Virus record (IMG/VR): IMGVR_UViG_3300024518_001214
Span: 1-22,339 of that record
Strand: one strand, 5' to 3'
From: a virus
DNA: 22,339 nt
Part shown: in pieces, positions 5,216 through 22,308 of the stretch
Numbering within the stretch: the stretch's first letter is position 1
How the letters are laid out: each line of letters opens with the position of its first letter
Translations under genes and position numbers: made by a program
Notes under the pieces: model-generated
What the model saw: only the letters and a program-made list of their open reading frames with translations
Told to the model about the DNA's origin: nothing
Databases searched by the model: none

Positions 5216-5632
5216 CTACGTAGCCGCTGTCCAACTCAGCGCGCCGTCACCCCGCAGGGTGGCTGACCAGCTGATCTTGTCCTTGACCGGTGCCGAGAAG
5301 GTGTCGGACTCCACGATGGCGTTGCCGTTGTAGAACGCTCCCGCGGTGGAGCTCGACAAGAAAAAGTAGAACGCCAGGTTGGCGAGGGTTGCATTCTCCA
5401 GCTGGTCCCGAATCCGCAGTTGCTCGGTGTCCGTGGAGTCCAGAGTGCCCGCAACGGATGCCGTCCACGACCGAATGGTTGGGTCGTGATCCTCCCAGGT
5501 TGAGCCAAAGGCGGTGATTTCTGCCGTGCCTACCGATCGGCTGAGCGTCCAGGTATCCAGCAGCGCCACCTTGTTTTCCGTTGATCCGGTAACGATCTGT
5601 ACGCTACCGTCCTTGCCCATTACTGCGCCCAT
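5216..5632 (-). CDS. Tail tube protein, second paralogue
   Basis: A start at ATG 5632 (MGAVMGKDGSVQ) overlaps the stop of the upstream paralogue by one base (TAATG), giving 138 residues. A further in-frame TTG at 5647 is possible but less likely. The protein is nearly all beta-rich and shares its core with the preceding gene: over 45 aligned residues from LLDTWT to AGTLDSTD only three conservative changes occur, and both end in ...SAPVKDK.SWSAT.RGDGA. It differs by a longer N-terminal loop (VTGSTENKVA) and a more hydrophobic strand (LAFYFFLSSSTAG). Position between the tail terminator and the chaperones fits the major tail (tube) protein. It could be the main tube subunit or a specialised variant; sequence alone does not say which. 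Confidence 0.8.
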   Translation of the reverse strand: MGAVMGKDGSVQIVTGSTENKVALLDTWTLSRSVGTAEITAFGSTWEDHDPTIRSWTASVAGTLDSTDTEQLRIRDQLENATLANLAFYFFLSSSTAGAFYNGNAIVESDTFSAPVKDKISWSATLRGDGALSWTAAT

Positions 5633-6030
5633 TACGATGGATCCCAAGCCATGGCGCCGTCACCACGGATAGTGGCCGACCATGACACTTTGTCTTTGAC
5701 AGGAGCCGAAAAGGTGTCCGACTCGATGATGCCGTTGCCGCTGTACACGGGAGCGGTGGTCCCCGCCAGCCGGAAGTTGCACGCGATGTTCGCCAATGTG
5801 CCGTCCTCCAGCTGGTCTCGGATTGATAGCTGCTGCGCATCCGTGGAGTCCAACGTGCCAGCTATGGACGCCGTCCACGATCTGATGGTGGGGTCGTGGT
5901 CTTCCCATGTGGAACCAAACGCGGTGATTTCCGCTGTCCCGAGGGACCGACTGATGGTCCAGGTATCCAGCAATCCCGTGATGTTTGCCCCGACACGGAA
6001 CGATCCGTCCTTGCCCATTATCTGGCCCAT
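5632..6030 (-). CDS. Tail tube protein, first paralogue
   Basis: This 132-residue protein starts at ATG 6030 (MGQIMGKDGSFRVGANITG) behind a very strong Shine-Dalgarno sequence (GGGAGGGG). It is beta-rich with no signal peptide or long helix, the expected composition of a siphovirus tube subunit, and it lies just after the tail terminator. It is a clear tandem duplicate of the next gene. The strongest shared stretch contains GTAEITAFGSTWEDHDP, and the C-terminal ESDTFSAPVKDK is also common to both. Because its ribosome site is the best in the tail module, this copy may be made in larger amounts than its coupled neighbour (inference). I cannot assign a subfamily. Confidence 0.8.
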   Translation of the reverse strand: MGQIMGKDGSFRVGANITGLLDTWTISRSLGTAEITAFGSTWEDHDPTIRSWTASIAGTLDSTDAQQLSIRDQLEDGTLANIACNFRLAGTTAPVYSGNGIIESDTFSAPVKDKVSWSATIRGDGAMAWDPS

Positions 6031-6951: not shown

Positions 6952-7587
6952 CTATTGCCGCCAGTCCCGGTACTCCTCGATAACCGACATGGCAGTCATC
7001 GGGATCGTGTCAAAGTAGGACATGCTCCCGTCGTCGTGACTGATGGTCCTGGTGACCCATGCGCGCCGTCTCTGCTTCTCCCACTGGAACGCCAACAACT
7101 CATGCACCGCGTCTTGCAAGTCCCCGGGGATGTGGTTGGCTGTCGTGGTGGCTGCCGAGGTCGTGTCGTAGCCGGCGGTGTACACCACCCGAACGTTCTC
7201 GTTGCCCAGAGTAAACGACTGGTCCTTGATGAATAGCTCGCCCTTCTCCGTGTTGACGTTGATGTCTTCCCAGTCCACCTGGGTGTCGAAGTCCGTGGAG
7301 CTCGAGAAGTCATCCCGGGTACTGGTAATGTACAGCTGCAACGTGGAGGAGGAGCTGACCACCGGGTACTGATTCAGCATCAGCCGCCGGGAACCGTCCC
7401 CGTCATACACCTCATCGTGGCTGCGCTGCTTGAGTTGACGCCCGGTAAGGCTATTCGCTCGTAGGCTCGCCGCGTTGATCGCCGCTACTATCCGCCCGTC
7501 CAGTCCCGTGCTGCCCGTTGATTCCCCCAGATACTCGCTTGCGCGGTCCAAGGTTGTTAGCTGGTTTTTTGCGTCCAGTGTCGCCAT
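6952..7587 (-). CDS. gp6-like head-tail connector protein
   Basis: I chose ATG 7587 (MATLDAKNQLTTLDRASEYLG) because GGAGG lies just upstream; a GTG at 7602 is the alternative. The 211-residue product opens with an LTTLDRASEYLG-type helix, then a run that aligns by eye with gp6-like connectors: IVAAINAASLRANSLTGR, a turn DEVYDGDGSRRLMLNQYPV, and a C-terminal helix rich in Arg/Trp (AVHELLAFQWEKQRRRAW). In this family twelve or thirteen copies form a ring below the portal. It is followed directly by the gp10-like gene. The first 137 nt of the reading frame overlap a small zinc-ribbon ORF in another frame. Confidence 0.85.
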   Translation of the reverse strand: MATLDAKNQLTTLDRASEYLGESTGSTGLDGRIVAAINAASLRANSLTGRQLKQRSHDEVYDGDGSRRLMLNQYPVVSSSSTLQLYITSTRDDFSSSTDFDTQVDWEDINVNTEKGELFIKDQSFTLGNENVRVVYTAGYDTTSAATTTANHIPGDLQDAVHELLAFQWEKQRRRAWVTRTISHDDGSMSYFDTIPMTAMSVIEEYRDWRQ

Positions 7588-7672
7588 CGGTCCTCCATCC
7601 ACACACCAGGCATGTGGTGGTGTTGTCGTTGTCGAACTGCTCCTGGCAGTCCGGGTTTACGCAAGTCCTCAT
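7451..7672 (-). CDS. Small zinc-ribbon protein overlapping the connector gene
   Basis: This 73-residue ORF begins at ATG 7672, overlapping the previous stop as ATGA, the coupling style used elsewhere in this operon. The first 28 residues form a convincing zinc-ribbon: Cys4 and Cys9, then Cys21 and Cys24 within CLVCGWRT. The remainder (RKKPANNLGPRKRVSGG...) is basic, Gly-rich and probably disordered, and lies out of frame inside the first 137 nt of the connector gene. Without this ORF there would be an 84-nt gap between stop and start, unusual for this operon. It may be a small nucleic-acid-binding or virion protein; no function can be assigned. The C-terminal half could be a by-product of overlap. 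Confidence 0.5.
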   Translation of the reverse strand: MRTCVNPDCQEQFDNDNTTTCLVCGWRTDGDTGRKKPANNLGPRKRVSGGINGQHGTGRADSSGDQRGEPTSE

Positions 7673-8000: not shown

Positions 8001-9968
8001 TTACCTCACTATACTCTTCCCGCTCACTTTCGTCGTGATCAGGGAAGACCCGCCCACTTTAGTGGTAAGCAGCGACGTGCCATTAATCACTGTTGTGATC
8101 AACGATGTGCCGTTGATCAGATCCAGCACCACCGTTGGCGCAACAGTTGCCGCAGTTCCACTTACCAGAGCCTTGCCGGTGGCGGTGGCGACAACAGTGA
8201 CGGTGGCGACGCTTGTGGATGTTCCCCTAACCAGCGATCGCCCCGTCCCAGCATAGGACAATGTGATAGCAGACCCACCGACGCCCTTGGCCAACAAGGT
8301 GCCATCGGCGGCAAAAGAGAATGCCAGCTCAGCTCCACCGACACCACTCGCGAGCAGGGTACCATCCGCCGCATAGCTAAACGCGACAGTAGTGGTGGCT
8401 GCACCACTGACCAGCGATAAACCATCGCCCGTATAGGAGAAAACCCCCGAAGTCGGCCCCGAAGTGGCGGCAACTCCCTTGAGCAGCGCCTTGCCATTCC
8501 CAAGATACGAAAGGGATACAGTCGCTCCACCAGCCCCTGTGAGCAACGCCTTGCCAGTGCCGCTATAGGAAAAAGAGGCCAGATTGGTGGTTGCGGCGAC
8601 ACCCTTTAATAGCGCCTTGCCAGTACCGGCGACGATAACCGTAACCTGCGAACCGGCCACGCCCTTGGCTATTGCTTTGCCAGTGCCCGCGTAGATACCA
8701 GTAGTCTGCGTACCGGAAATCGCACCCTTAGCAAGCGCCTTCCCTGTGCCAGCGTAGGAGAACGCAACCACAGTGACGGCGGAGCCCTTGGCAAGCGCTT
8801 TACCCGTGCCAGCGTAGGAGAACGCAACCACAGTGACGGCGGAGCCCTTGGCAAGCGCTTTACCCGTACCAGCATAGGAGAACGCAACGGCGGTAGCTGC
8901 AACACCCTTGCCGAGTATCTTGCCGCTACTCTGATAGGTGAACACACCACCAGCAACCGACACCTCATGCGCGCCCATGTCGTATGCCGCATCTCTGGTG
9001 CCATCAAGAATATCTTCGGACGGTATGGTAAGGCCCGCCCCCGTAGATGAGGAATGAGCTTCCTGGGCATCGTTGTCGGTGGCGTTGTCTTGGAGAGTGA
9101 AATCATAGGGTGAGGTGGTGTCGTCGGTGAAGATGACCCAGTCCCCCGCACCCGGACTCGCAGTATCGGTACTGGTTCGGCTTTCGAGCGCACCCACCGC
9201 ACCTGCGTCCTCTGTGCTAATCGAGGTGTCTGAAGCTACGCAGTAGTCCAGGTTTGCTGTCGTCGGATTGCTATAGAAGTTAAAATCGGCATTAGCACCG
9301 CTGTTCATCGCGATGGTATTGAACACAGCCCATACGGCAGAGCCTGTGTTTGACAGGCATCCTCTATCAGCCGCGGCTGCTGCCTCCTGACCACCATACA
9401 TAACCGTACAGGAATTGACATTGAGAGTGGGAGTGCCCGACTGATTGTGAATGCACCCTCTCCCCCAGTTGAAGATGATGCAATTGGTGAAGGTAGCGGT
9501 TACGGACGTTCCGCTGCCTGTGTAACAACCGTCCTGATCAGTGGACGACGCTGTGTTGGCGTGAATGATGAGGTCATTCAGGATGAGACCCGTCGCCGTG
9601 CTGTTAATCCGGACGCCCTCGCTTGAGCTACTTGTTGCATCCTGACGGATAACAAACCCTTCGAGGGTGATGTCGGAATCGTCGCATGTGATAACATGCC
9701 CCGACGCTCCCGCCAATCGGTAGTAAGTGGGCGAAGCTTCGATCTTCCCGGTGTGCTTGGAATCACCTGTCGCGACAATGTTTATGATGACACTTGCCGC
9801 AAACCCGCTGATTGTAAAAGAATTGGCGTCATCTACCGACCAGGTTCCAGTTATGTTGGCGTTCTCAGTATCTCCGGCTCCCGAATTACCATCCCGGTCA
9901 GCCTCCCAGGCAGTCAACGTGGTGAAATCGCCGCCGCTTTGCTGAACAGCAGAATTATTGACCGCCAT
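8001..9968 (-). CDS. Parallel beta-helix fibre/spike-like protein with 13 tandem repeats
   Basis: This 655-residue protein has three parts. Residues 1-342 resemble secreted or phage right-handed beta-helix proteins: an opening GGDFTTLTAWEADRDGN, strand ladders such as ITLEGFVIRQDA and GLILNDLIIHANTAS, and the typical closing motif ILDGTRDAAYDMGAHE. Residues 343-614 are 13 tandem repeats of about 20 residues, consensus FSYAGTGKALAKGxAxxxVA. Residues 615-655 switch to a 10-residue repeat (INGTSLITTV-like) with four copies. It starts directly after the preceding stop (TAAATG). There is no signal peptide. The form suggests an elongated trimeric fibre or spike, attached to head or neck because its gene is in the head block rather than after the tape measure. 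Receptor binding or decoration is inferred; no catalytic residues could be assigned. Confidence 0.75.
   Translation of the reverse strand: MAVNNSAVQQSGGDFTTLTAWEADRDGNSGAGDTENANITGTWSVDDANSFTISGFAASVIINIVATGDSKHTGKIEASPTYYRLAGASGHVITCDDSDITLEGFVIRQDATSSSSEGVRINSTATGLILNDLIIHANTASSTDQDGCYTGSGTSVTATFTNCIIFNWGRGCIHNQSGTPTLNVNSCTVMYGGQEAAAAADRGCLSNTGSAVWAVFNTIAMNSGANADFNFYSNPTTANLDYCVASDTSISTEDAGAVGALESRTSTDTASPGAGDWVIFTDDTTSPYDFTLQDNATDNDAQEAHSSSTGAGLTIPSEDILDGTRDAAYDMGAHEVSVAGGVFTYQSSGKILGKGVAATAVAFSYAGTGKALAKGSAVTVVAFSYAGTGKALAKGSAVTVVAFSYAGTGKALAKGAISGTQTTGIYAGTGKAIAKGVAGSQVTVIVAGTGKALLKGVAATTNLASFSYSGTGKALLTGAGGATVSLSYLGNGKALLKGVAATSGPTSGVFSYTGDGLSLVSGAATTTVAFSYAADGTLLASGVGGAELAFSFAADGTLLAKGVGGSAITLSYAGTGRSLVRGTSTSVATVTVVATATGKALVSGTAATVAPTVVLDLINGTSLITTVINGTSLLTTKVGGSSLITTKVSGKSIVR
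8004..8126 (-). repeat. Short 10-residue repeats at the fibre C-terminus
   Basis: The last 41 codons of the beta-helix protein encode four degenerate units: INGTSLITTV, INGTSLLTTK, VGGSSLITTK and VSGKSIVR. The DNA repeats with a 30-nt period. The period is half that of the upstream 20-residue repeats, and the G-T-S/G-K/S-L core is shared, so both arrays may derive from one strand-turn element. Confidence 0.7.
8127..8942 (-). repeat. Thirteen tandem ~60-nt coding repeats
   Basis: Residues 343-614 of the beta-helix protein are 13 units of 20-24 residues with core F-S-Y-A-G-T-G-K-A-L-x-K-G. The most similar pair, 8761-8820 and 8821-8880, differ at only two of 60 bases, while outer units are strongly diverged. 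The pattern points to repeated unequal exchange or slippage with one recent duplication. Unit lengths remain multiples of three, so the frame is kept. The arrangement is protein-coding; there are no unique spacers as in a CRISPR array. Confidence 0.9.
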
Positions 9969-10541
9969 TTAGCGAGTTTCCCCTACTCGCGCATCTTCTA
10001 TCTCTTTCTCCGCAGTGCGATCTGGACCCAGAGAGGCTTCGCGTTCCTTGTTGTGCATCTTGCGAATCACCGCTTCCCTGGTCTGCCGCGCTGCTGTTTT
10101 CTCAGCCTTCGTTGTTTGGCCAGCAGGCTTCCCTGTCATCGTCGCCGCAAGATCAGCGTCTGTCGTGCTTAGCAAATCCTTCTCAGCGACAGTGAGGTTA
10201 CGCAAAGAGTTGTTGTACTTCGGCCCCTCTACGGACATCTCGTACCACTTGCCATCGGTGTGTTGCTGAATCAGCGTCTCGTCCAGACCAGGTTGCGCAG
10301 ATGCCTCGCGCATCTCCAACTGTGGACGCGCCTCCTCGGCCAAAAGCCGATGGTATGCCGCTACCGAAATACCTGGCACATCGACAATGTCGAAAACCTT
10401 CTGTTCACGCGGGGAGAAGACGTGAATATCCAGATAGGCGCCGAGAACGTCCCCGGACTCGATGTCTGGTACTCCACGCAATCGGCCCCCAACATGGGGG
10501 CCTTTAGTTGAAGAGGTGTTGACGACAAGCAGCCTACACAT
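9969..10541 (-). CDS. Hypothetical virion-operon protein with charged helical C-terminus
   Basis: This 190-residue protein starts at ATG 10541 (MCRLLVVNTSSTKGPHVGG) behind an AAGGGA ribosome site. Residues 1-65 look beta-rich with GRLRGVPDIESGDVLGAYLDIHVFSP. The rest is largely helical and highly charged (TKAEKTAARQTREAVIRKMHNKEREAS), without any transmembrane segment or signal peptide. I do not recognise the family. The early part has a compact, possibly small-barrel pattern. Its stop abuts the start of the large repeat-bearing beta-helix protein, so it could be a partner, chaperone or attachment subunit for that fibre-like protein (inference from adjacency only). Confidence 0.65.
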   Translation of the reverse strand: MCRLLVVNTSSTKGPHVGGRLRGVPDIESGDVLGAYLDIHVFSPREQKVFDIVDVPGISVAAYHRLLAEEARPQLEMREASAQPGLDETLIQQHTDGKWYEMSVEGPKYNNSLRNLTVAEKDLLSTTDADLAATMTGKPAGQTTKAEKTAARQTREAVIRKMHNKEREASLGPDRTAEKEIEDARVGETR

Positions 10542-11185: not shown

Positions 11186-11599
11186 TTATGAGGTCGAGGA
11201 CTTGAGGTCGTAGTCCGGGGTGATTGTTACCGTTCCACCACCTGCAGGAATCGTATACGGCCCATCGGTGAACTTTTCTGCGAAGTACAAATAGGTCGTC
11301 CCTGTGCTGGTAACATAGTACCCATACACCGTATCTCCCGAGGTGTAGGTGAACGTTCGCGCCGTTGCACTGCCAATGGCAATCCCAGAACCGGTGGTGG
11401 AAATCGTCCATGTTGACGCGGTCATCGACTCCGCCGAATACCCCGCCCCCGTGGACTCGGTGAAGTGGGTGCTCTGGCTTCCCCCTACCGGGGTGTAGTT
11501 GTTGCCATACAGCCGCAGCTTTTTCGTGCCAGCGCTGGAAATGCCCATAACATGCTCGAGCATCCGAGCCGCACCTGTGGTTGGGGTGACTACCGCCAT
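11186..11599 (-). CDS. Small beta-rich virion protein
   Basis: This 137-residue protein starts at ATG 11599 (MAVVTPTTGAARMLEHVMGIS) behind an excellent AAGGAG ribosome site. The N-terminus MLEHVMGISSAGTKKLRLYGNNYTP, followed by a Thr/Ser/Gly-rich beta region ending in TVTITPDYDLKSS, is a pattern that I have seen in phage structural modules of unknown function. The middle YGYYVTSTGTTYLYFAEKF is a clear strand pair. There is no enzyme motif, coiled coil or signal peptide. Good ribosome site, composition and position suggest a virion decoration or fibre-associated protein. The specific role is unknown. Confidence 0.65.
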   Translation of the reverse strand: MAVVTPTTGAARMLEHVMGISSAGTKKLRLYGNNYTPVGGSQSTHFTESTGAGYSAESMTASTWTISTTGSGIAIGSATARTFTYTSGDTVYGYYVTSTGTTYLYFAEKFTDGPYTIPAGGGTVTITPDYDLKSSTS

Positions 11600-12992: not shown

Positions 12993-13814
12993 TCATTCCT
13001 CTGTCTTCCATCTGGCGTCCCGCATCGGCATGTACGCCTTCTCCTGCTGCATCAGCTCCTGGTGAGCTCCTATGTACTGGTCCAGCTGTGACTGCACCGA
13101 CCGGGACTGGTTCTGCAAGTTCTGGATAGCCGTAGATATCTCCTTCTTGCGTGCAGTTATCTTGGCTTGGATCCGCCGGTCCTCTGGATCCTCGATTGCG
13201 TACATGAACGTGGTCAACAGGATGTCAGACTCTGGCGGGATGTAAACTTCCACTCCCAACCCGCGAGCCCAGCCAACGAAGTACTCCACCGATGGTCTCT
13301 GGTACTCGTACTCCTCGGACCGCGCCATGTCGATGCCGTATAGGCTGATCTTGCGCGCGCCCTCGAGCACTGCAAAGGCAATCATCCAGCTGACGGTGTT
13401 GGTGTAGTACTGCGTCCCCGTCTGCTCTACCACGTACTCCCACGGGAACTTGATTGCCCCGGGAATGTCCTTGTACTTCTCCAGCATGTAGATGGGGATC
13501 TTCGCGTTCTGCAGCCACTCCAGATGCTTGGGGTTGCGCTGCTTCATGGTGAGATACTTGTGGTTGTGCATCTCGAACAGCCGGTCAATCCGCCTCACCC
13601 CGGGGGCTATGTAGATCTCGTTCAGTCCCCATATCTCGATGTTGGGATTGTCGAACGGAGCCAACAACATGCTGGCCGGCGCGAACCCAAGGATTGCCAC
13701 CTCGGTTGATCTGATCGGGATGTGCCACGGTGGTGCTGTGACCACCTCTGGCTTGTGTCCGTTTGTCTTGGCGGCGGGTGGCTTTTTCACCACCCGCCCC
13801 TTGGTTGTTCCCAT
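12993..13814 (-). CDS. Rossmann-like protein of unknown function with C-terminal coiled coil
   Basis: I chose ATG 13814 (MGTTKGRVVKKPPAAK) because AGGAGG lies upstream; a longer frame to 13865 is less supported. The 273-residue product has a basic disordered start, then a Rossmann-like core: strand-loop VAILGFAPAS (39-48), EIWGLNEIYIAP (60-71), RLFEMHNHKYL (78-88), and a helix-strand NTVSWMIAFAVLEG to LYGIDM (139-163), then YIPPES. Residues about 212-260 form a likely coiled coil. Similar proteins, pairing a 'GxAPSS' start with an 'EG....LYGxDM' core, are common in phage structural modules; their activity is unknown. The pattern is reminiscent of MptE/DUF115-like or sugar-nucleotide transferases (inference only). 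A glycan- or nucleotide-related virion modification is possible. Confidence 0.65.
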   Translation of the reverse strand: MGTTKGRVVKKPPAAKTNGHKPEVVTAPPWHIPIRSTEVAILGFAPASMLLAPFDNPNIEIWGLNEIYIAPGVRRIDRLFEMHNHKYLTMKQRNPKHLEWLQNAKIPIYMLEKYKDIPGAIKFPWEYVVEQTGTQYYTNTVSWMIAFAVLEGARKISLYGIDMARSEEYEYQRPSVEYFVGWARGLGVEVYIPPESDILLTTFMYAIEDPEDRRIQAKITARKKEISTAIQNLQNQSRSVQSQLDQYIGAHQELMQQEKAYMPMRDARWKTEE

Positions 13815-13836
13815 AAACGTTGCGCCTCCTACCGCG

Positions 13837-14352
13837 CTACGTGGTGCTGGTGGTCGCTGCCACACTCCCCACGTTGCCTACGATCCCCCACTTGGTAGCA
13901 CTGATGCCAACCAAGCTCACAGCTTCCTCGGCTGCATTGAACTTGAGGTAATGGTTATCGGTTGTCTCACCAAACGTAATCGAGGTTGCCCCCGTGTAGA
14001 CGTTGACGAAACCGGTGGCCGACGCGCTGTCGCAGTAGATGTATTTGGTAACACCCGCCGCTGGCGTGTCGATGGTGTACAGCTCCTTGGTCCCAGTTGA
14101 ACTGACAACACTCACCCCAGATTCGCTGAGGTTTGCCGCTGTCGTCTCCGAGACTACAGAGTGCTTGAGCACCCCCGCCGTGGTAAGGGAGATAGTCCCC
14201 GCTACCGACAGCGTACCCCCAGCAGACACCGTGATGGTGCCAGTGGAGTTGAGAGTACCCTCCAACGTAAGAACCCCGCTGGAGTCCACCACCAATTCGG
14301 TGGACCCCTGCTTGGTATAGACGCTGGCATTGTAGCTTGCGTCCGATGCCAT
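13837..14352 (-). CDS. Beta-solenoid-like small virion protein
   Basis: This 171-residue protein starts at ATG 14352 (MASDASYNASVYTKQGSTEL), just after the preceding TAA. No strong ribosome site is seen, so coupling is likely. Residues about 20-70 repeat short 'GTLxxxGTITVSAGG' strand-turn units, suggesting a small beta-solenoid. The C-terminal half (TKYIYCDSASATGFVNVYTG) is a globular beta domain ending in a Thr/Ser tail. The pattern is that of a head-decoration or short fibre protein. It lies two genes after the major capsid, which supports a head location. No family is recognised. Confidence 0.65.
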   Translation of the reverse strand: MASDASYNASVYTKQGSTELVVDSSGVLTLEGTLNSTGTITVSAGGTLSVAGTISLTTAGVLKHSVVSETTAANLSESGVSVVSSTGTKELYTIDTPAAGVTKYIYCDSASATGFVNVYTGATSITFGETTDNHYLKFNAAEEAVSLVGISATKWGIVGNVGSVAATTSTT

Positions 14353-14804: not shown

Positions 14805-16040
14805 CTATGCCAACGCCGACCGCGCGAAGGCTTCCTCGAAGATAGGCATAGCATCGACTTCCATGCGTCCAATCCATCCCACTTCGTTGGAGGCCGCGTA
14901 CAGCTCGTTTAGCACCTGCAGTTCCATGCTCAGTGCGGTGGCAATCCAGTAGTACGAAAAGTCACCCAGAATGGCGACGTACAGTCCAGTGGTGAACGTG
15001 TTGGGCGCAAACTCAGACATCCGGTACGGACGGTCTATGATCGCGTTGGGACGGTTGCCCGCAATCCCAGCTTGCCACAGATAGTCGCCGTTGCCGTCCT
15101 TGAGTAGACGTACCCGCTTCACCCAGTCCCTATGCCCAATCCATGTGGCCCGATTGAAGTACCCCTCTTTCAGGGAGTACGCCACCTCGATGAGGTTGTC
15201 TGCGCCGATGGTGGTGGTGGTGTTACCAGTGGAGACATCCCGCCCGGTGGAGATGCCCGAGGCCGACGCGGTAAACACGCCGAGAGGTCGGCCAGCACCG
15301 CTGCCGGTCAGGAACGCATTCTCCTCGGTTTCACCAAACAGCCGCGCAAACTCTGCCCGCACAAACTCTGCCACCGGAGTGGCCGCGTTGCGGATGTAGT
15401 TGCGACTGGACCGCACCAGCTTCGCCGACAGCCGGGGATACAGTTCGCGCTTGCCCAACACCCAGGTCTGCGACCTCGACGTTGACGCTACCTCTCCCTG
15501 CCAGTCTGCGTCGCTTTCCTTGGTTTCCAAGGTTGGCACACCCAAGCTAACCGCTTGCGTGACAGTCTGCGTGGTGGAGAGACCGCGGATGTACGTGGTG
15601 TCATCGATCTTTTGCAGCAACTGCCGCATGAACTGCTCGGGGACTACGTTGTAGCCACCACCCGCCAAGTCATCGGTCTGCAGTACAGCCCGCTCCTCTG
15701 CGGTGAGCTCAGTTCTTTCGTTCCGGTCTGGCTTGGGTACCAGCGCCTTATCGTAGGCTCTGCTTACCAGTTCCGGGTCCGGTTGCCCTGGAGTGATTAC
15801 CGGGGGCTCTGCATCGTCGGCTGGTTCGGCCAGCCGGTCCTCGCGATCATAGTGGGCTTGCACAGCCTGCAACTGCTCATCCAGACGGGTGATTTCCTCG
15901 TCCTTGGCGTTGTAGGTGTTCCACTGCTCCGTGCTCATCTCCGTGCCGGCCTCTACGGTCTCGGCAAGCAGACTCCGGTTTTCTCCGACCAGGTTGTTAA
16001 GCCTGCCCTGGAGATCCCGAACCTTTGCGTTGTTACGCAT
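14805..16040 (-). CDS. Major capsid protein, HK97 fold
   Basis: ATG 16040 (MRNNAKVRDLQGRLNNLVGE) is chosen over a TTG at 16052 because GGGAGAAGG lies just upstream. The 411-residue product has an N-terminal delta domain: a charged coiled coil over residues about 1-70, then a Pro/Asp-rich linker, probably removed by the protease. The mature part opens near DDLAGGGYNVVPEQF and shows HK97-family landmarks: LGKRELYPRLSAKLVRSS (P/A domain), an ETEENAFLTGSGAGRPLGVF motif, and a C-terminal FEEAFARSALA close. The gene overlaps the protease stop by 8 bp, so levels are likely coordinated. Assignment is strong; fine details of cross-linking cannot be told. Confidence 0.95.
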   Translation of the reverse strand: MRNNAKVRDLQGRLNNLVGENRSLLAETVEAGTEMSTEQWNTYNAKDEEITRLDEQLQAVQAHYDREDRLAEPADDAEPPVITPGQPDPELVSRAYDKALVPKPDRNERTELTAEERAVLQTDDLAGGGYNVVPEQFMRQLLQKIDDTTYIRGLSTTQTVTQAVSLGVPTLETKESDADWQGEVASTSRSQTWVLGKRELYPRLSAKLVRSSRNYIRNAATPVAEFVRAEFARLFGETEENAFLTGSGAGRPLGVFTASASGISTGRDVSTGNTTTTIGADNLIEVAYSLKEGYFNRATWIGHRDWVKRVRLLKDGNGDYLWQAGIAGNRPNAIIDRPYRMSEFAPNTFTTGLYVAILGDFSYYWIATALSMELQVLNELYAASNEVGWIGRMEVDAMPIFEEAFARSALA

Positions 16041-16782
16041 ACCTTCTCCCAATGTGCTTGTACCGTTGATCCTCGGTATGGGCGAAGGCTACCAGCATCC
16101 GCTGTCGCTCCCCGGCGTCCGCCGGTTCGTCCTTTACTTCGGTCGTGGTGGAAACGTTGCCCCAGGCAGCCTCGAGCTGCTCCACGGCTTCACGTTCCTC
16201 GTTGGTAAGTATCATACCATGATCTGCCTTGCGTGCTGCAACCATCAAATGTTGGTCCCGTGCATCAAGGCTGGTCTGCGGATAGGCCGGAAAAGTAACC
16301 GGGGAAACGTCGAACAAATCCACGTCCCGCAGTTCCCGTAGCACCTCTTTCGAGTCCTTCTCCTGCCACCACGTATCGCCGCCCTTGGGCACCTTGAAGC
16401 CAAAGCTCATCTGATCGATGTCCCCGCGCTTGACGGACTCCATGAGGTCTCGAGCCCACTGCGCATCCGGCGGATTGATGTGCACCCGCAATCCGGTGTC
16501 GTCGGTCGCCATCGTGAGAGTGCCGTTGGTGCTGCGTCCCAGTACGAAGTTGGAATCATGGTTCCACAGCGCGCGCACGTCTTGCTCCTCTGCCAACGCC
16601 CGGTCAAACGCTCCCTTAGCGATGCGCTCCTTGAAGCCCATCATCGGCACTGACCAGACATCGTACTTGGCTGCGTAGCCAACCAGCCCGCCATCGGCGT
16701 CGTCCACCCGGAGCTCGGCAATTACCGTGCGAAACTCCCGCATTTCCTTGTGGACCTCATCTCTTACTTGTGCAATTTCCAT
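16033..16782 (-). CDS. HK97-type prohead protease
   Basis: I place the start at ATG 16782 (MEIAQVRDEVHKEMREF), behind a perfect GGGAGGGG ribosome site and after the portal stop; the longer frame to 16824 would overlap the portal. The 249-residue product carries the family landmarks in order: GYAAKYDVWS (35-44), GAFDRAL, the catalytic-His motif ALWNHD (His75), MSFGFKV with the catalytic Ser126, and FDVSPVTFPAYPQT (157-170). These are hallmarks of the HK97-like serine protease that cleaves the capsid delta domain during maturation. The last 80 residues are charged, perhaps serving as scaffold. It lies between portal and capsid, the standard order. Confidence 0.93.
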   Translation of the reverse strand: MEIAQVRDEVHKEMREFRTVIAELRVDDADGGLVGYAAKYDVWSVPMMGFKERIAKGAFDRALAEEQDVRALWNHDSNFVLGRSTNGTLTMATDDTGLRVHINPPDAQWARDLMESVKRGDIDQMSFGFKVPKGGDTWWQEKDSKEVLRELRDVDLFDVSPVTFPAYPQTSLDARDQHLMVAARKADHGMILTNEEREAVEQLEAAWGNVSTTTEVKDEPADAGERQRMLVAFAHTEDQRYKHIGRRYA

Positions 16783-16796
16783 GTTCCCCTCCCAGG

Positions 16797-18785
16797 TTAC
16801 GCTGGCACAATTTGACAATCGCACCCTTGATGCAGTGGCGGATGGCGGACGTTCCGGTATGTCCGCATCGTTGCCTGGTCTGCTTGTACTTCGTCCCCGC
16901 CGGGCACAAACTCAGTGCCCACCGGAATTATACGCCCATTCATTTCCTTGCAAAACGGACAGTTATCGCCAAACGCTACCCACCGCACGCTCCGCACCAT
17001 CTGGCTGTCCTGAAATGACACCAGCGTGAAGGCGTTCACTCCACGCAAGGTTTCCTCTCGAGCCATCTTCCCCGGGCGCCGCTCCGTCCACTCGCTAAGC
17101 CGTGTTAACACAGCATCCCGAGGACTGGTGTCGAACTCTTGCGCCCGATCCATAACGGACCGCAGCTGCCCCGTAGACCCCAGGGTGTACCCCGCGATCA
17201 GGTTGTCGAAGTAGTTATCGATGAACCGGGTCAGCTCATCGTCGTTCATCTGGGTGCCAGTGTCGCCAATCAGCATGGCCCGCGCGTTCTGGAATAGCGA
17301 CTGGTACAGTGGACCCGTCCGCTGCCGGATGAACTCCCCGTGCTCTCGGTAGAAGTTGGATAGGAACTGCTCAAAGCTGTTGCGGTCCCGGGTGTCCAGC
17401 ATCTTCCGCGCAGCCTTGGCGATGTCCTGCTCTTCCCGGACCACCACCCGCCGCCATGCGTCCTCGAAGATGTCCACCATGGACAACGCAAATGACCGCC
17501 GTTGGTCTGCCCTCTGCTGGCGCTCCTCCCGGAACGCATCGAAGGGATCTTCATCCTGGTCATCGTTGTCGCCCGGTTGCTGGCCTTCTCCCGGCGCCGC
17601 GGACTCTGCCATGTTCACCGGTTGCCAGTATGTTTCCCCGATACCCTCCGGTAGGGGATTCATGTCCTCGAGCTCTCGGATGTCGTCCGCACTCATCCAG
17701 CCCCAGTTACGTGCCTTGGCGTAATACTCCGCCCGGGACTGTGCATCGCCACGTAGTAGGGCTTGCACGCTGAACTTGAAAAAGAACTCGTCCTGCTCTG
17801 CCTCGCTAAGCAACTGCGAATCTAAAGACTGCTCCCACCGTACCAGCCACGGCATCATCGTGAACGTGATGAACTCCCGGGACTGCTCCTCCACGTTGGT
17901 GAACGTGGCGTGCTCCAGGTCAGCAATAAGGTGTGGCGGGATGTTGTACCAACGCGCCACCTCGCTCACTTGGTACTTGCGCTCCTCGATTAGCTGGGAG
18001 TCCCGTGGGGTGTTAGCTGTGGACTTCCACTCCAGCCCTTCCTCCAACACCGCAACGCCTTGTTTCTTGCCCCACCGGCCTTGCTTGCGTCGCCAGTCGT
18101 CCTTGAGCCGCTGCCGCGCATCGTCGTTGCGTAGTCTGCCTTTCATTTGGAGCACCCCCGAGGGTGCCGCCTCGTTGGCTAAGTAGTCCGAGGCGTACTG
18201 CTGCAATCCAAGGGAAAGCCCGAACGAATCCCGAGCTTGGCTGATGGGATCCTCCCCGGCAAACCCGTTGAACGCGAACCATGACATATGGAACACCTGG
18301 TCTGGGCGAAATTTGCGCATCTGCCCGTCTGGCCGGGTGTAGATGTACACCAGGTTCTTGCCATCTACTTGGATCTCAGTCTGTCCCGCCACCAACGGTA
18401 CCACTGCGATGATTCTGCCCACCCGATCGCGCACGAGCTGGGAGATGTGGTTGCCCCATAGGAGCGTCTGTATCTGGGCGGTTTCCCGCCACTGGTAGGA
18501 TGTCGTGAGTGGATTTGGTTGCTTGCCGATCAGTCGGAACAGTGGATGGTCGCGTGCTTCCTCTTTCCCGCGATCCCCCACCCGGCGGTACAGCTTGAGC
18601 GGCAGAGTGGCAAGGAACTCCGAGATCCGAGTAACCGCGCTCTTGACCGCCATGACTTGGAATGCGTTTTCCTGGTCTACGTGGATGCCAGACGCGGCTT
18701 GATCCCCGGGCCATAGGCTAAGGTTGCCCTCTGCTTGGGTCACCTTCGTTGCACGCTTCCCGAACAGAGACTCCAGAAAGCCCAT
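16797..18785 (-). CDS. Portal protein fused to a MuF-like head morphogenesis domain
   Basis: The start at ATG 18785 (MGFLESLFGKR) overlaps the TerL stop by one base (TAATG). Residues about 1-400 form an HK97-family portal: AVKSAVTRISEFLATLPLKLY, GNHISQLVRDRVGRI, and a C-terminal wing ending near MNPLPEGIGETYWQPVN. A Pro/Asp/Gln-rich linker follows (about 405-435), then a domain ending in a MuF-like signature: C609 and C612 (CPFCKEMNG), and H648, H652, C655, C657 (RHPPLHQGCDC). MuF proteins are minor head proteins, normally separate from the portal, so this gene is a natural portal-MuF fusion of 662 residues. The fusion is seen directly; head ejection or assembly roles of the MuF part are from family knowledge. 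Confidence 0.92.
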   Translation of the reverse strand: MGFLESLFGKRATKVTQAEGNLSLWPGDQAASGIHVDQENAFQVMAVKSAVTRISEFLATLPLKLYRRVGDRGKEEARDHPLFRLIGKQPNPLTTSYQWRETAQIQTLLWGNHISQLVRDRVGRIIAVVPLVAGQTEIQVDGKNLVYIYTRPDGQMRKFRPDQVFHMSWFAFNGFAGEDPISQARDSFGLSLGLQQYASDYLANEAAPSGVLQMKGRLRNDDARQRLKDDWRRKQGRWGKKQGVAVLEEGLEWKSTANTPRDSQLIEERKYQVSEVARWYNIPPHLIADLEHATFTNVEEQSREFITFTMMPWLVRWEQSLDSQLLSEAEQDEFFFKFSVQALLRGDAQSRAEYYAKARNWGWMSADDIRELEDMNPLPEGIGETYWQPVNMAESAAPGEGQQPGDNDDQDEDPFDAFREERQQRADQRRSFALSMVDIFEDAWRRVVVREEQDIAKAARKMLDTRDRNSFEQFLSNFYREHGEFIRQRTGPLYQSLFQNARAMLIGDTGTQMNDDELTRFIDNYFDNLIAGYTLGSTGQLRSVMDRAQEFDTSPRDAVLTRLSEWTERRPGKMAREETLRGVNAFTLVSFQDSQMVRSVRWVAFGDNCPFCKEMNGRIIPVGTEFVPGGDEVQADQATMRTYRNVRHPPLHQGCDCQIVPA

Positions 18786-20407
18786 TATTCACCACCCACT
18801 ATCGACAGTCCACGATTCTCATATATCGACTCACCTTCGCCACGTAGTGACAGCGACAGTGCCATGATCAGCGCCACTATCCCGTCAATCCTTTTGGATG
18901 ACTTCCGCCGGTCTGGCTTAACTGGCTTGATGTTGCCGGCAGCGTCCTGGCGTACCGCCGTGCATTCAGCGTTCCAGTTGAGCACGGGATTGTTGCCGTT
19001 GCGCAGCTTGCGCTCCGCGGTCAAGTCAATCAGTGCCTTGGATGGCTCGGACATGCTGGCCCAACCTTGGCCAAACTGCACCATGGTTATCCCGGTCCGG
19101 TCTTCTATTCGTTCGCTAATATGCCCAGCACCCCACCGGTCGAAAGCAGCTTCTGCTACGTGGAACCGTTCTGCGTCTGCTGCTATGCCGTCCAATACGT
19201 CCTCGTACCTAACGGTTCGTCCTGGTGTCGCTGTGATCAATCCCTGGGCTACCCAGACATCGTACGGGACTCGGTCGCGCCTCACCCGCTCCTGTACGGT
19301 GTCCTCCGGCATCCAGAACCGCGCCAGGACATCGTAACTGCCATCCTCATCCGGGAACACCATCACCCACGCGGTGAGGTCTATACGGGACGACAAGTCC
19401 AGACCAGCATAGCACACCTCGCCTTCGAGGTCGTCTTCGTGCACTTCCCCGGCAGACTGTTCCCAGTCGTAGGTGTCAATCCACCGCTCGACTTGCGCGG
19501 TCCACTGGTCCAGATACAGCCGGCGGAAGGTGTTTTGATACGCCGGGCTTCTCTCGGCTTTGGATGCCTCGGTCCGTAGCTGGTCGATGTTGCGGAAGAT
19601 ACCCAAAGCTGGATTAGCTGCTGCCCATACTTTCTCATCCCGCCAATCAGCATCGCGGTCCGCAGTGAATACCATGGCGTAGTGCGACGGGTCCGACATC
19701 GGATCCTTGATAACGTCCATCGCATACTGATGCTGTTCCCAGCAAATGTGGTCTTCCTCGTACACTCCCGCGGTGGTGATTGCCATGGCCAGCGCTTGCT
19801 CCCGAGCTGCCCCGGTGCCGCTAACCAACGTATCCCACAGTTCCCGATTCTTCTGCGCGTGGAGCTCATCGAATATCAACCCGTGGAGATTGGGTCCGTG
19901 CTTGGATGGCACATCGCTCGAGACTGCGATCATGACCGAGCCAGTCGCCATGTCTACGATACGCTTGCGAGAATCAATCACCTTGAGTCGCGATCGCAAC
20001 AAGTCGCTCTGCAACACCGCGTCCCGCCCATAGCCGTACACGATACCCGCTTGCTCTTTGTCAGACGCTGCCACGTAGACCATGGCCCCGGGCTCATTGT
20101 CCGCCACCAGCAGAAAAAGCCCCACACCGGATGCCAATGGCGATTTCCCGTTCTTCTTGGGGAGCTCCAGGTAAGCACTGCGCACCATTCGGTTGCCAGT
20201 CTTGTCTACCCAGCCGAATACCTCGCTAAGAAACTCCTCTTGGTAGGGGATGAGGGAGAAAGGTTGTCCCGCCCACTTGCCTTGGGAGTGGGTCAGCACC
20301 TTCTCGAAAAAGTTGATGACGTAGTCCGCGTGCGAGTTGCTGAACTGGTAGCGGACGCCGTTGTGGGTGATGCGCTTACGGTTACTTCTTGACGAGGCGA
20401 GGCCCAT
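18785..20407 (-). CDS. Terminase large subunit
   Basis: ATG 20407 abuts the methyltransferase stop (TAGATG). The 540-residue protein has the two expected parts. The ATPase has a Walker A-like ELPKKNGKS at 81-89 and Walker B LIFDE at 177-181, preceded by SKHGPNLHG, plus an ITTAG motif III near 210-214. The nuclease begins with GLDLSSRIDLTA (Asp337) and ends near DGIVALIMAL (Asp508), providing metal-binding aspartates. This is a Terminase_1/HK97-type large subunit that cuts and pumps phage DNA into the prohead through the portal encoded next. Length is normal and no interruption is seen. Separation from the small subunit by a methyltransferase is unusual but not unique. Confidence 0.96.
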   Translation of the reverse strand: MGLASSRSNRKRITHNGVRYQFSNSHADYVINFFEKVLTHSQGKWAGQPFSLIPYQEEFLSEVFGWVDKTGNRMVRSAYLELPKKNGKSPLASGVGLFLLVADNEPGAMVYVAASDKEQAGIVYGYGRDAVLQSDLLRSRLKVIDSRKRIVDMATGSVMIAVSSDVPSKHGPNLHGLIFDELHAQKNRELWDTLVSGTGAAREQALAMAITTAGVYEEDHICWEQHQYAMDVIKDPMSDPSHYAMVFTADRDADWRDEKVWAAANPALGIFRNIDQLRTEASKAERSPAYQNTFRRLYLDQWTAQVERWIDTYDWEQSAGEVHEDDLEGEVCYAGLDLSSRIDLTAWVMVFPDEDGSYDVLARFWMPEDTVQERVRRDRVPYDVWVAQGLITATPGRTVRYEDVLDGIAADAERFHVAEAAFDRWGAGHISERIEDRTGITMVQFGQGWASMSEPSKALIDLTAERKLRNGNNPVLNWNAECTAVRQDAAGNIKPVKPDRRKSSKRIDGIVALIMALSLSLRGEGESIYENRGLSIVGGE

Positions 20408-21874
20408 CTACATCACCAGCTGCATCTGCAGCGCCTCTATGCGTCGCTCAGCCAGCGCCGCGTATTCAGGGTTAAGCTCGCAGCCGATGAACTCACGCCC
20501 CTCCTCGTGGGCCACCTGGCCGGTGGTCCCGCTGCCCAAGAATGGATCGAGAACCGTCCCGCCTACTGGGGAACCAGCCCGGATGCACGGTCGCACCAGC
20601 GCTGTCGGGAAGGTGGCGAAGTGTGCCTCGGGGTAGGGCTCGGTGGCGATGGTCCATACGTCGCGCTTGTTTCGGCCGGCAGGATGCCCCGGTATTTCCT
20701 TTGTCATATCGGCTCGCGGGCGATGAAAGTCAGCGTGTGTGCCCACTTCGCCCTTGCCAATCTTGCCGGGACCATTCGGTCCCCAATGATTCTCCCCATG
20801 CGGCTCACGTACAGCATCGCTGTCGTAGAAATAAGTCGCCCGCTTGCTCAGCATGAACAGGTGCTCGTGGCTCTTCGTCGGCCGGTCAGTCACCGACTCG
20901 GGCATGGGGTTCGGCTTGGCCCAGATGATATCGCTGCGTAGATACCAGCCGTCGAGCCGTAGCGCCGTGGCCAGCATCTGCGGCTGATCGATCAGATCCT
21001 TCTGTTTGAACCCTCGGGACGCTATGGTACAATACGCTTGTGCCAAGGCGAAAGGTTCCCTGTCCTCTATGCGGTCAACCAAAGTCCGCAGCTGCGAAAG
21101 CATGTCGGCGGTGCTCTCAGCCGTATGAGCGGACACCCGCGCATCGGCAAGAGATGAGCGAGCGCTTGACTGATCAACCGAAGCCTCATCTACAAGGACG
21201 AAAGCGCCCGGAACACGCGGCGTGGATGCGTCGCTACTGGACAGACGAGCGGCGGGCGACGATGCGGGGGCGTCAGCTTGATCCGAACGCCCGTTACCAT
21301 GGTCTGTCGTCTCGCCAGGCTGCGGCGCTTGTTCGCTCCGTTGGCCACTGCCAGGAGTGTCGCCATGATGGCTCGGTGAGTCGCCTTGGCGTTCATCATG
21401 TGGATCGGGACAAGCACAATCAGAGCCCCGAGAATCTGCGCGTTCTATGCCATCGCTGCCATATGACGGACCATCGGCTCGCTGGCGACTTTCACCGCCA
21501 GTAGCGTAAGCGCTACCCATATTCAGCCACAGCGTGCCGTCGTCCCGCAGCACCCGGCGCACCTCGCGGAACACGCCCACCATGTTGGCGATGTACTCGT
21601 CGATGGTCGGCTCCAGGCCGAGTTGGTTGTCCACGCGGCGAGCACCGCACTTGCCGCATACGGCTCGAAATGGCTGTGCCATCTTGCCGTTGTTGCCTTT
21701 GTTCTGCGTGGAGCCAGTCGCTGGTAGCGCATGGTCGCACTCCGCGTCGCCGCCTTCCCACTCAGCCGTGCCGTAGTCGCGCAAACCCCAGTAGGGCGGG
21801 CTCGTCACCACGCAGTGCGCAACGCCGTCGGGCAGCTCGCGTAGCTTCTCGCGCACGTCGCCTACCAGGATCAT
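20408..21874 (-). CDS. DNA methyltransferase (beta class) with a long internal insert
   Basis: ATG 21874 (MILVGDVREKLRELPDGV) overlaps the TerS stop as ATGA; the frame is open further to 22150 but only inside TerS. The 488-residue product has motif IV TSPPYW at 24-29, a CGKCG zinc-like knuckle, LWLNMGSAYA at about 116-124, then resumes GFKQKDLIDQP at 288 and WYLRSDIIWAKPNPMPESVT, and ends with motif I, DPFLGSGTTGQ. Motif IV before motif I marks the beta order, typical for N4-cytosine or N6-adenine enzymes; the SPPY form suggests N4-cytosine. Between residues about 125 and 288 lies a low-complexity Ser/Asp/Ala/Arg-rich stretch which is antisense to an HNH gene. Without it the length would be about 325, the family norm. 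Function in packaging or anti-restriction is inferred. Confidence 0.9.
   Translation of the reverse strand: MILVGDVREKLRELPDGVAHCVVTSPPYWGLRDYGTAEWEGGDAECDHALPATGSTQNKGNNGKMAQPFRAVCGKCGARRVDNQLGLEPTIDEYIANMVGVFREVRRVLRDDGTLWLNMGSAYATGGESRQRADGPSYGSDGIERADSRGSDCACPDPHDERQGDSPSHHGDTPGSGQRSEQAPQPGETTDHGNGRSDQADAPASSPAARLSSSDASTPRVPGAFVLVDEASVDQSSARSSLADARVSAHTAESTADMLSQLRTLVDRIEDREPFALAQAYCTIASRGFKQKDLIDQPQMLATALRLDGWYLRSDIIWAKPNPMPESVTDRPTKSHEHLFMLSKRATYFYDSDAVREPHGENHWGPNGPGKIGKGEVGTHADFHRPRADMTKEIPGHPAGRNKRDVWTIATEPYPEAHFATFPTALVRPCIRAGSPVGGTVLDPFLGSGTTGQVAHEEGREFIGCELNPEYAALAERRIEALQMQLVM
21006..21033 (+). promoter_or_regulatory. Promoter-like sequence for the antisense HNH gene
   Basis: TTGAAC (21006-21011) and TACAAT (21028-21033) are separated by 16 bp, and TG one base before the -10 box makes it an extended -10 element. 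The predicted transcript would begin within a few bases of the GTG at 21040, so the mRNA would be leaderless or nearly so. The -35 half lies in methyltransferase codons (GFKQ). The match is good but unproven. Confidence 0.5.
21040..21504 (+). CDS. HNH endonuclease, antisense inside the methyltransferase gene
   Basis: This is the only plus-strand gene. GTG 21040 is the only near start after an in-frame TGA, giving 154 residues. It has an N-terminal zinc knuckle (C8, C11, C22, C25: CPLC...CRRC), a basic middle resembling NUMOD-like DNA-binding elements (KPHLQGRKRPEHAAWMRRYW, 48-67), and a C-terminal zinc-bound HNH nuclease: C104/C107, catalytic-type HH at 119-120, N132 in ENLRVLC, C137/C140 and H141. 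This is the architecture of free-standing phage homing endonucleases. The ORF occupies almost the entire insert in the methyltransferase, so no intron or intein accompanies it. An alternative role is as a packaging-associated HNH, as some terminases have, given its location between TerS and TerL. No ribosome site is seen. Confidence 0.88.
   Translation: MPRRKVPCPLCGQPKSAAAKACRRCSQPYERTPAHRQEMSERLTDQPKPHLQGRKRPEHAAWMRRYWTDERRATMRGRQLDPNARYHGLSSRQAAALVRSVGHCQECRHDGSVSRLGVHHVDRDKHNQSPENLRVLCHRCHMTDHRLAGDFHRQ
21501..21516. repeat. Perfect inverted repeat at the HNH 3' end
   Basis: GTAGCG, a four-base TAAG loop and CGCTAC form a perfect 6-bp hairpin that includes the HNH stop codon. There is no following T-run, so it is not a standard rho-independent terminator. 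It coincides with the likely insert junction, in methyltransferase codons SAYAT, so it may mark the target site or cap the HNH transcript. Confidence 0.5.
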
Positions 21875-22308
21875 TTCTTGACTAACCTCGGCCCAGACAG
21901 CAGCTCTTCCAGCGGGGTCGCAGTGTCGCCACCCGGGGTTGAGTCGATCTTGGTTCTGCTGGCCGGGGTCATGCCAAACTCGCACAGCATCCGATAGTAC
22001 TTGTCCCAGTGGCGCAACATCGGTGTCACACTTCCCGCCAACCGTGCCTCCTCGTACAGTGCGTAAAAAGTACACAGTGCCCGGAACGCCTCGAAGTCCG
22101 CTTCGGTGAGCAGCCCCAGCTTGTACAACATGGGGCCAATCTCCTCCCACTTTTCCTGGGCCATGGCTGGGATATCCCCAGGGGCTTTTCGATACGCCCG
22201 GGTTGGCTTGGCCTCGGACTTGCGGATGCGTTTCTTGTGGTCTTCGCCCTCGAGCTTTTTGAGGGATGTGGGCTTGGGTGGCCGACCGGCTCTATTGGCA
22301 GCTGGCAT
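21871..22308 (-). CDS. Terminase small subunit, P27 family
   Basis: ATG 22308 (MPAANRAGRPPKPTSLKKLEG) encodes 145 residues, a usual length. The P27-type signatures are present: GRPPKPTSLKKLEG at 8-21, a Pro-containing linker, the helix block AQEKWEEIGPMLYKLGLLTEAD at about 50-71, and EFGMTPASRTKI at 110-121. The small subunit recognises phage DNA and loads the large subunit for packaging. It is the first gene of the visible operon, and its stop overlaps the methyltransferase start as ATGA. No good Shine-Dalgarno site precedes the ATG; instead a CATAAT box lies 7 nt upstream. Confidence 0.92.
   Translation of the reverse strand: MPAANRAGRPPKPTSLKKLEGEDHKKRIRKSEAKPTRAYRKAPGDIPAMAQEKWEEIGPMLYKLGLLTEADFEAFRALCTFYALYEEARLAGSVTPMLRHWDKYYRMLCEFGMTPASRTKIDSTPGGDTATPLEELLSGPRLVKK

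Follow-up and report, generated by a model that had tools for sequence, protein, structure and literature searches.

The window analysed here, meaning the whole stretch of 22,339 nucleotides, is a virus record of 22.3 kb whose main genes lie on the minus strand in tailed-phage order (Table 1). The gene of interest lies after the capsid gene and ahead of the head-tail adaptor gene and encodes a protein with a long repeat array; beyond the adaptor follow a tail tube, a probable tape measure and a tail protein. There are two tandem tail tube genes (Phage_tail_2; 5216-5647 and 5632-6030, minus strand) with a mutual identity of 71%, whereas the syntenic relative L003 carries a single copy. A gene in the middle of the structural cluster (12993-13865, minus strand) is kept in both phages (L003:3903-4658) and neither version has a Pfam match at E 0.01. 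On the plus strand, an ORF at 21040-21504 with HNH-endonuclease-like matches just below the Pfam cut-offs lies antisense within a long N6/N4 DNA methylase ORF (20408-22150, minus strand), opposite a variable-looking insert.

Table 1. Positions of the features discussed, numbered from the first base of the window
Feature	Position	Strand	Remarks
Terminase	18785-20407	-	
Portal, then protease-like gene			Structural cluster of the window, tailed-phage order
Major capsid protein	14805-16052		Run of small genes after it
Partner gene	11186..11599	-	Conserved upstream of arrays in many phages
Gene directly upstream of the array-protein gene	9969..10541	-	Homologue directly upstream of the L070 beta-helix gene
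Array-protein gene, whole	8001..9968	-	655 aa; ATG start
N-terminal domain	8946..9968	-	Residues 1-341; acidic (pI 4.05); probable right-handed beta-helix
Repeat array	8130..8945	-	Residues 342-613; 13 units of 20-23 residues; basic (pI 10.0)
Units 2 and 3	8766..8885	-	Recent tandem duplication, 58/60 bases identical
C-terminal tail	8004..8129	-	Residues 614-655; 10-residue period
Head-tail adaptor (phrog_442)	6952-7602	-	Flanks the accessory slot downstream; also present in L003

The repeat array and its growth

The first-pass annotation had described thirteen units of about 20 residues at 8004-8942, which corresponds to residues 343-655, followed by a shift to a period of 10. Both features hold. 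The identity at lag 20 is 44% in the array, whereas none of 5,000 shuffles exceeds 22% even at its best lag between 6 and 30, and the anchors of the 13 units are spaced by 20, 20, 20, 21, 20, 22, 20, 24, 20, 20, 20 and 22 residues. In the last 63 residues the identity at lag 10 reaches 38% against a shuffled maximum of 35%, and the period of 10 covers the final ~42 residues of the protein. Units 2 (8826-8885) and 3 (8766-8825) are the pair reported to share 58 of 60 bases, a count that is reproduced here, and TRF independently delimits 8725-8888 as a tandem repeat of period 60 with 2.7 copies and 94% matches. The claim that the units grade from diverged outer copies towards this pair stands for the near-identity of the pair itself; the grading is uneven from the two ends, because units 2 and 3, with unit 4 close to them, form the N-terminal end of the array and not its middle.

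The 58/60 pair supports the suggestion of ongoing expansion, and recent pairs are also found elsewhere, with 59/60 identical bases in L036 and 57/60 in L010. The predicted difference in length between relatives is seen in another pair of family members, with 6 units in L036 and 4 in its 73%-identical relative L048. Judged from their sequences, these cases show arrays gaining and losing single units. The copy number of 13 in the window may include an assembly error.

Glycine makes up 17% and alanine 19% of the array, which, having only 3 Asp and 1 Glu among its 272 residues, is devoid of acidic Ca2+-binding turns. The second strand of the unit carries Leu or Ile at position +7 in 13/13 units and mostly Ala at +6, and Lys occupies +5 and +9 in most of them. 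This basic array adjoins the acidic N-terminal domain. Among 10 other arrays compared, those of L048, L062 and L059 are basic as well (pI 10.3, 9.3 and 8.7), the other seven being acidic.

A widespread and unnamed repeat family

A whole-protein search of 50,697 phage records returned no relative, and a scan for the array with exact peptides gave 37 pattern matches with 0 confirmed. Relatives were therefore sought, by a method aware of the period, with degenerate DNA patterns of the form Y-x-G-x-G ... G-x-A at 60-base spacing. Successive scans of viral contigs returned 1, then 10, then 46 stretches, and the unit is found in 36 other distinct viral proteins, with 308 units in total. The pattern of the unit is Y-x-G-[ST]-G-x-hyd-x-hyd-x-G-x-A with a period of 20, and L007-L068, the loci by which the family is delimited here, give the consensus [FY]-S-Y-T-G-S-G-x-[LI]-x-[FL]-S-G-x-A. 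Arrays range from 2 to over 50 units with a near-constant spacing of 20/22, and the turn glycines and the aromatic and hydrophobic positions are strictly conserved across the 36 unrelated viral proteins. Three of the array proteins (L014, L032 and L038) carry an N-terminal zinc-ribbon-like segment, CCSCKKEY...CPYCG.

The window and L007 had supplied the search patterns, so three tests of membership were chosen to be less circular; the third of them, the gene neighbourhood, is taken up below with the partner gene. A two-unit profile built from the 36 other loci, with the window left out, scores the window array at 124.4 bits; the best control reaches 25.2 in 1,000 shuffles and 46.8 in 1,000 column permutations, which preserve both period and composition. 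This profile was used instead of a first single-unit HMM, which was over-fitted and placed the window below some controls. Columns lying outside the search patterns also agree with the window (z=3.05, 6/5,000). The second strand is where the window departs from the family, which is hydrophobic at +6/+8 instead of at +7. On these sequence comparisons the window array is shown to belong to a widespread, unnamed viral family of GSG repeats of 20 residues.

Searched with the first pattern (hydrophobic +7), 84,980 bacterial and archaeal genomes gave 10 matches, which on translation appear to be wrong-frame or low-complexity. One stretch from the viral scan (L012) is spurious, its translation being the same as that of bacterial match L020, and a match in Phage C48C1 is a different kind of repeat. 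A minor tail protein of a Mycobacterium abscessus prophage (L027:2830-4047) contains a TITGGxP array of ~20-residue units that may be a more distant cousin of the GSG repeat. Within open-access papers, none describing the phage GSG repeat was found.

The annotation's view that the unit is new and matches nothing is correct in that no family of Pfam, PHROG or NCBIfam passes its cut-off for the window array, but the repeat is widespread among viruses and its family is partly covered by phrog_11522 or DUF2807. The former, a PHROG of unassigned function, recognises 14 out of 30 array proteins in the family but neither the window array (at E 0.01) nor the full-length window protein (at 0.1). DUF2807 (PF10988; cut-off 24.2) is reached by the relatives L059 (110.5 bits) and L056 (42.2 bits). 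The window array is not reported up to E 1 and is therefore not filed as a DUF2807 member. In the PDB, the family profile matches 3jx8, 4opw and 3ljy, of which 3LJY and 4OPW are DUF2807 adhesin structures (PMC10949514); 3jx8 and 3ljy are Parabacteroides proteins. WD40 proteins appear in the same search at similar E-values, so that it does not by itself prove the link to DUF2807. Scored with the viral repeat profile, 3jx8 stands above all 2,000 controls and a WD40 protein does not.

Head domains, tails and a suggested exchange of modules

The N-terminal domain of the window protein is related to those of L002 and L070. It scores 16.4 bits (E=0.007) with PF13229, under the cut-off of 25.9 bits, and membership is not claimed. 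Its model is weak (pLDDT 42) and matches beta-helix lyases and phage tailspikes with Z 12.5-14.7, which makes a right-handed beta-helix weakly probable. Relatives carry other heads before the GSG array, including LamG-type domains (L007, L009, L016, L030), RCC1 (L040) and further N-terminal domains. A tail of period 9 or 10 ends at least six relatives (L014, L043, L032, L038, L048 and L053), and L007 has a shorter ending similar to these.

Homologues of the partner gene (E=4.9e-34 for the match to the window gene) lie upstream of the array in 22 of the 48 array loci, or 16 of 36 clusters, at a distance of 4-1847 bases and on the same strand. Only two loci without a scanned array have the partner: L001, which is the window's own copy, and L028 from cyanophage S-CAM1, where a repeat protein of the phrog_11522 type follows just downstream. 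A partner near the array is common in the family but not universal. Scans with the partner genes and with the N-terminal domain yielded one or two loci each. In L003, whose capsid protein is 64% identical to that of the window, both the array gene and the partner are absent between the corresponding flanking genes, and the module is therefore accessory or exchangeable. L070 has a window-like N-terminal domain with a homologue of 9969-10541 directly upstream; its beta-helix-type protein (L070:3878-5257) bears a different ~20-residue array of DGV..D repeats, apparently another unnamed phage repeat. A related head on a different repeat suggests that heads and stalks are exchanged.

Several relatives place the array in a virion context. 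In L008 (5236-9468), ~40 GxGxIxFxGxAP units of 20 residues are fused before a tail sheath stabiliser of the T4 gp15 type (PF16724, 190.7 bits; phrog_227). The array of L015 is fused N-terminal to a phrog_399 structural protein of the head/neck type, and genes for the scaffold and the major head protein are close to the array gene in both L041 and L013. The place of the window gene in the capsid-to-adaptor interval agrees with this. Such gene context supports a structure on the particle, perhaps near the head or neck, a position in the genome being no proof of one in the virion. Since the array precedes the virion-core domain in the fusions, the C-terminal end would be the virion side, a hypothetical polarity that depends on few fusions (L008, L015 and L016). 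The label "fibre-like" given to the protein at first pass is in this respect plausible, a location on the virion being hypothetical.

A putative solenoid stalk and its alternatives

Over 294 units, large hydrophobic residues predominate in columns -2, 0, 6 and 8, and polar ones in columns -3, -1, 5, 7 and 9. Such alternation is the pattern of two strands that would pack on a common core. AlphaFold2, run on 15 sequences, models the array as a beta-solenoid with two strands per unit, at a pLDDT of only 62 and a pTM of 0.57. AlphaFold2 has a documented tendency to turn repeats, random 20-residue ones included, into confident beta-solenoids (PMC11795689), and for this reason the array model alone proves nothing. 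With this low-confidence model the nearest solved folds are beta-solenoids, namely CsgA (8c50), MpAFP (3p4g), 3jx8 and 3ljy. The comparison with 3p4g gives Z 19.2 and an rmsd of 2.8 over 252 residues, and the same model (pLDDT 62, with the solenoid bias of AlphaFold2) gives Z 15.5 with 3jx8 and Z 15.4 with 3ljy; Foldseek finds no match better than E 0.06. Taken together with the DUF2807 relatives, an adhesin-type beta-solenoid is the likely fold. The idea in the annotation of a beta-structured repeat gains support from the alternating hydrophobic columns and the model, and the structure prediction it had proposed, run as a single chain, returned a solenoid, albeit at that low pLDDT and with that bias. 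Should the core be lined by the even positions, a lysine-leucine-lysine face would run along the stalk.

The preferred explanation, with a probability of roughly 0.6, is an appendage on the virion surface made of a beta-helix head, a beta-solenoid stalk whose length changes by tandem duplication, and a tail of 10-residue repeats. The protein would comprise three pieces: an acidic domain folded as a beta-helix, 13 two-stranded coils forming a basic stalk, and a short tail of 10-residue beta repeats. Each unit would supply two strands whose inward residues share the core, with glycines at the turns, so that whole units could be added or removed without breaking the fold. Slippage or unequal recombination would bring about such changes in frame, and a gain of a unit has happened recently in the window array. 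The beta-helix would form the outer head facing a receptor or glycan, with the tail at the virion. For the window array, the most probable role is that of the stalk in such an appendage.

Many phage fibres are trimers, and the array could instead be an intertwined trimeric beta fibre shaft with the tail as a triple-stranded beta-helix tip and the N-terminus as the anchor, on the model of known phage and adenovirus shafts and with the anchor where classical tail fibres have it. The fold of an obligate trimer could differ from that of the monomer, whose model has a pLDDT of only 62; the C-terminal change to a 9-10-residue period recurs in relatives, and the family profile weakly matches the trimeric T4 gp5 spike (E 0.01-0.25). 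These gp5 matches, however, map to the array and not to the tail of the profile, the sequence links of the family lead to single-chain DUF2807 solenoids, and the arrays of L008 and L015 precede a virion-core domain, the reverse of the classical polarity. A trimeric shaft is regarded as rather unlikely. Less probable still is a flexible low-complexity spacer devoid of regular tertiary structure, in which repeats persist only as tolerated in-frame duplications of 60 bases. Such a spacer would agree with the glycine and alanine content, the low pLDDT and the recent duplication, but it does not account for turn glycines, aromatic/hydrophobic positions and a 20/22 spacing kept over 36 unrelated viral proteins, nor for hydrophobic columns that alternate.

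That the repeats are blades of a WD40-like propeller or a beta-flower domain is hardly credible. The best-scoring Pfam rows for the window are the WD40/THOC3 propeller PF25174 (31.9 bits) and the 6-fold beta flower PF21786 (20 bits), both rejected as candidates since the window falls far under the respective cut-offs of 305 and 34 bits. The L008 array does pass the PF21786 cut-off with 42.7 bits, possibly by cross-match. The WD40 protein Ika8 lies inside the null of the repeat profile (37/1,000), and a beta-flower closes into a barrel of 4 to 6 hairpins (PMC10584680), in contrast to arrays of 2 to over 50 units.

Tentatively, and with rather low odds, the family could represent an unnamed class of phage stalks: DUF2807-like adhesin solenoids of 2 to >50 coils, exchangeable together with the partner and an anchoring tail of 9-10-residue period. 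They would attach to the virion by the C-terminus, copy number would set the reach of the head, and the stalk in the window would bear an unusual lysine-rich face. If true, such stalks would be mounted opposite to classical tail fibres. The GSG repeat is common in environmental phages, unnamed in Pfam and NCBIfam and partly covered by one PHROG, and annotators can use the combination of repeat, partner gene and tail to name dozens of structural proteins now called "hypothetical". Growth that is visible unit by unit also gives direct access to the question of whether surface stalks are tuned in length by phages.

The window array is a recently expanded case of a widespread unnamed repeat and not a new kind of system. 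Among the closest in phages are phrog_11522 and the repeat proteins of cyanophages S-CAM1 and S-CAM3, which have units of the YxGSG type as in the window family and differ in their N-terminal domain and virus group; the partner-type gene directly upstream of the S-CAM1 protein is a further likeness to the window module. The L070 protein resembles that of the window in its N-terminal domain and in the gene immediately upstream, but its C-terminal repeats are DGV..D and not GSG units, the stalk module appearing to have been exchanged. The curli subunit CsgA and the ice-binding solenoid MpAFP consist of short coils with two strands each, like the array model, a likeness that depends on a low-confidence model and implies no sequence membership for the window array. 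The DUF2807 proteins are adhesins of the cell surface in which the coils are limited in number, and the window itself has no PF10988 match; like the viral family, they show a GSG-x-hydrophobic motif about every 20 residues. This link to adhesin solenoids suggests a building block common to phage and bacterial surfaces.
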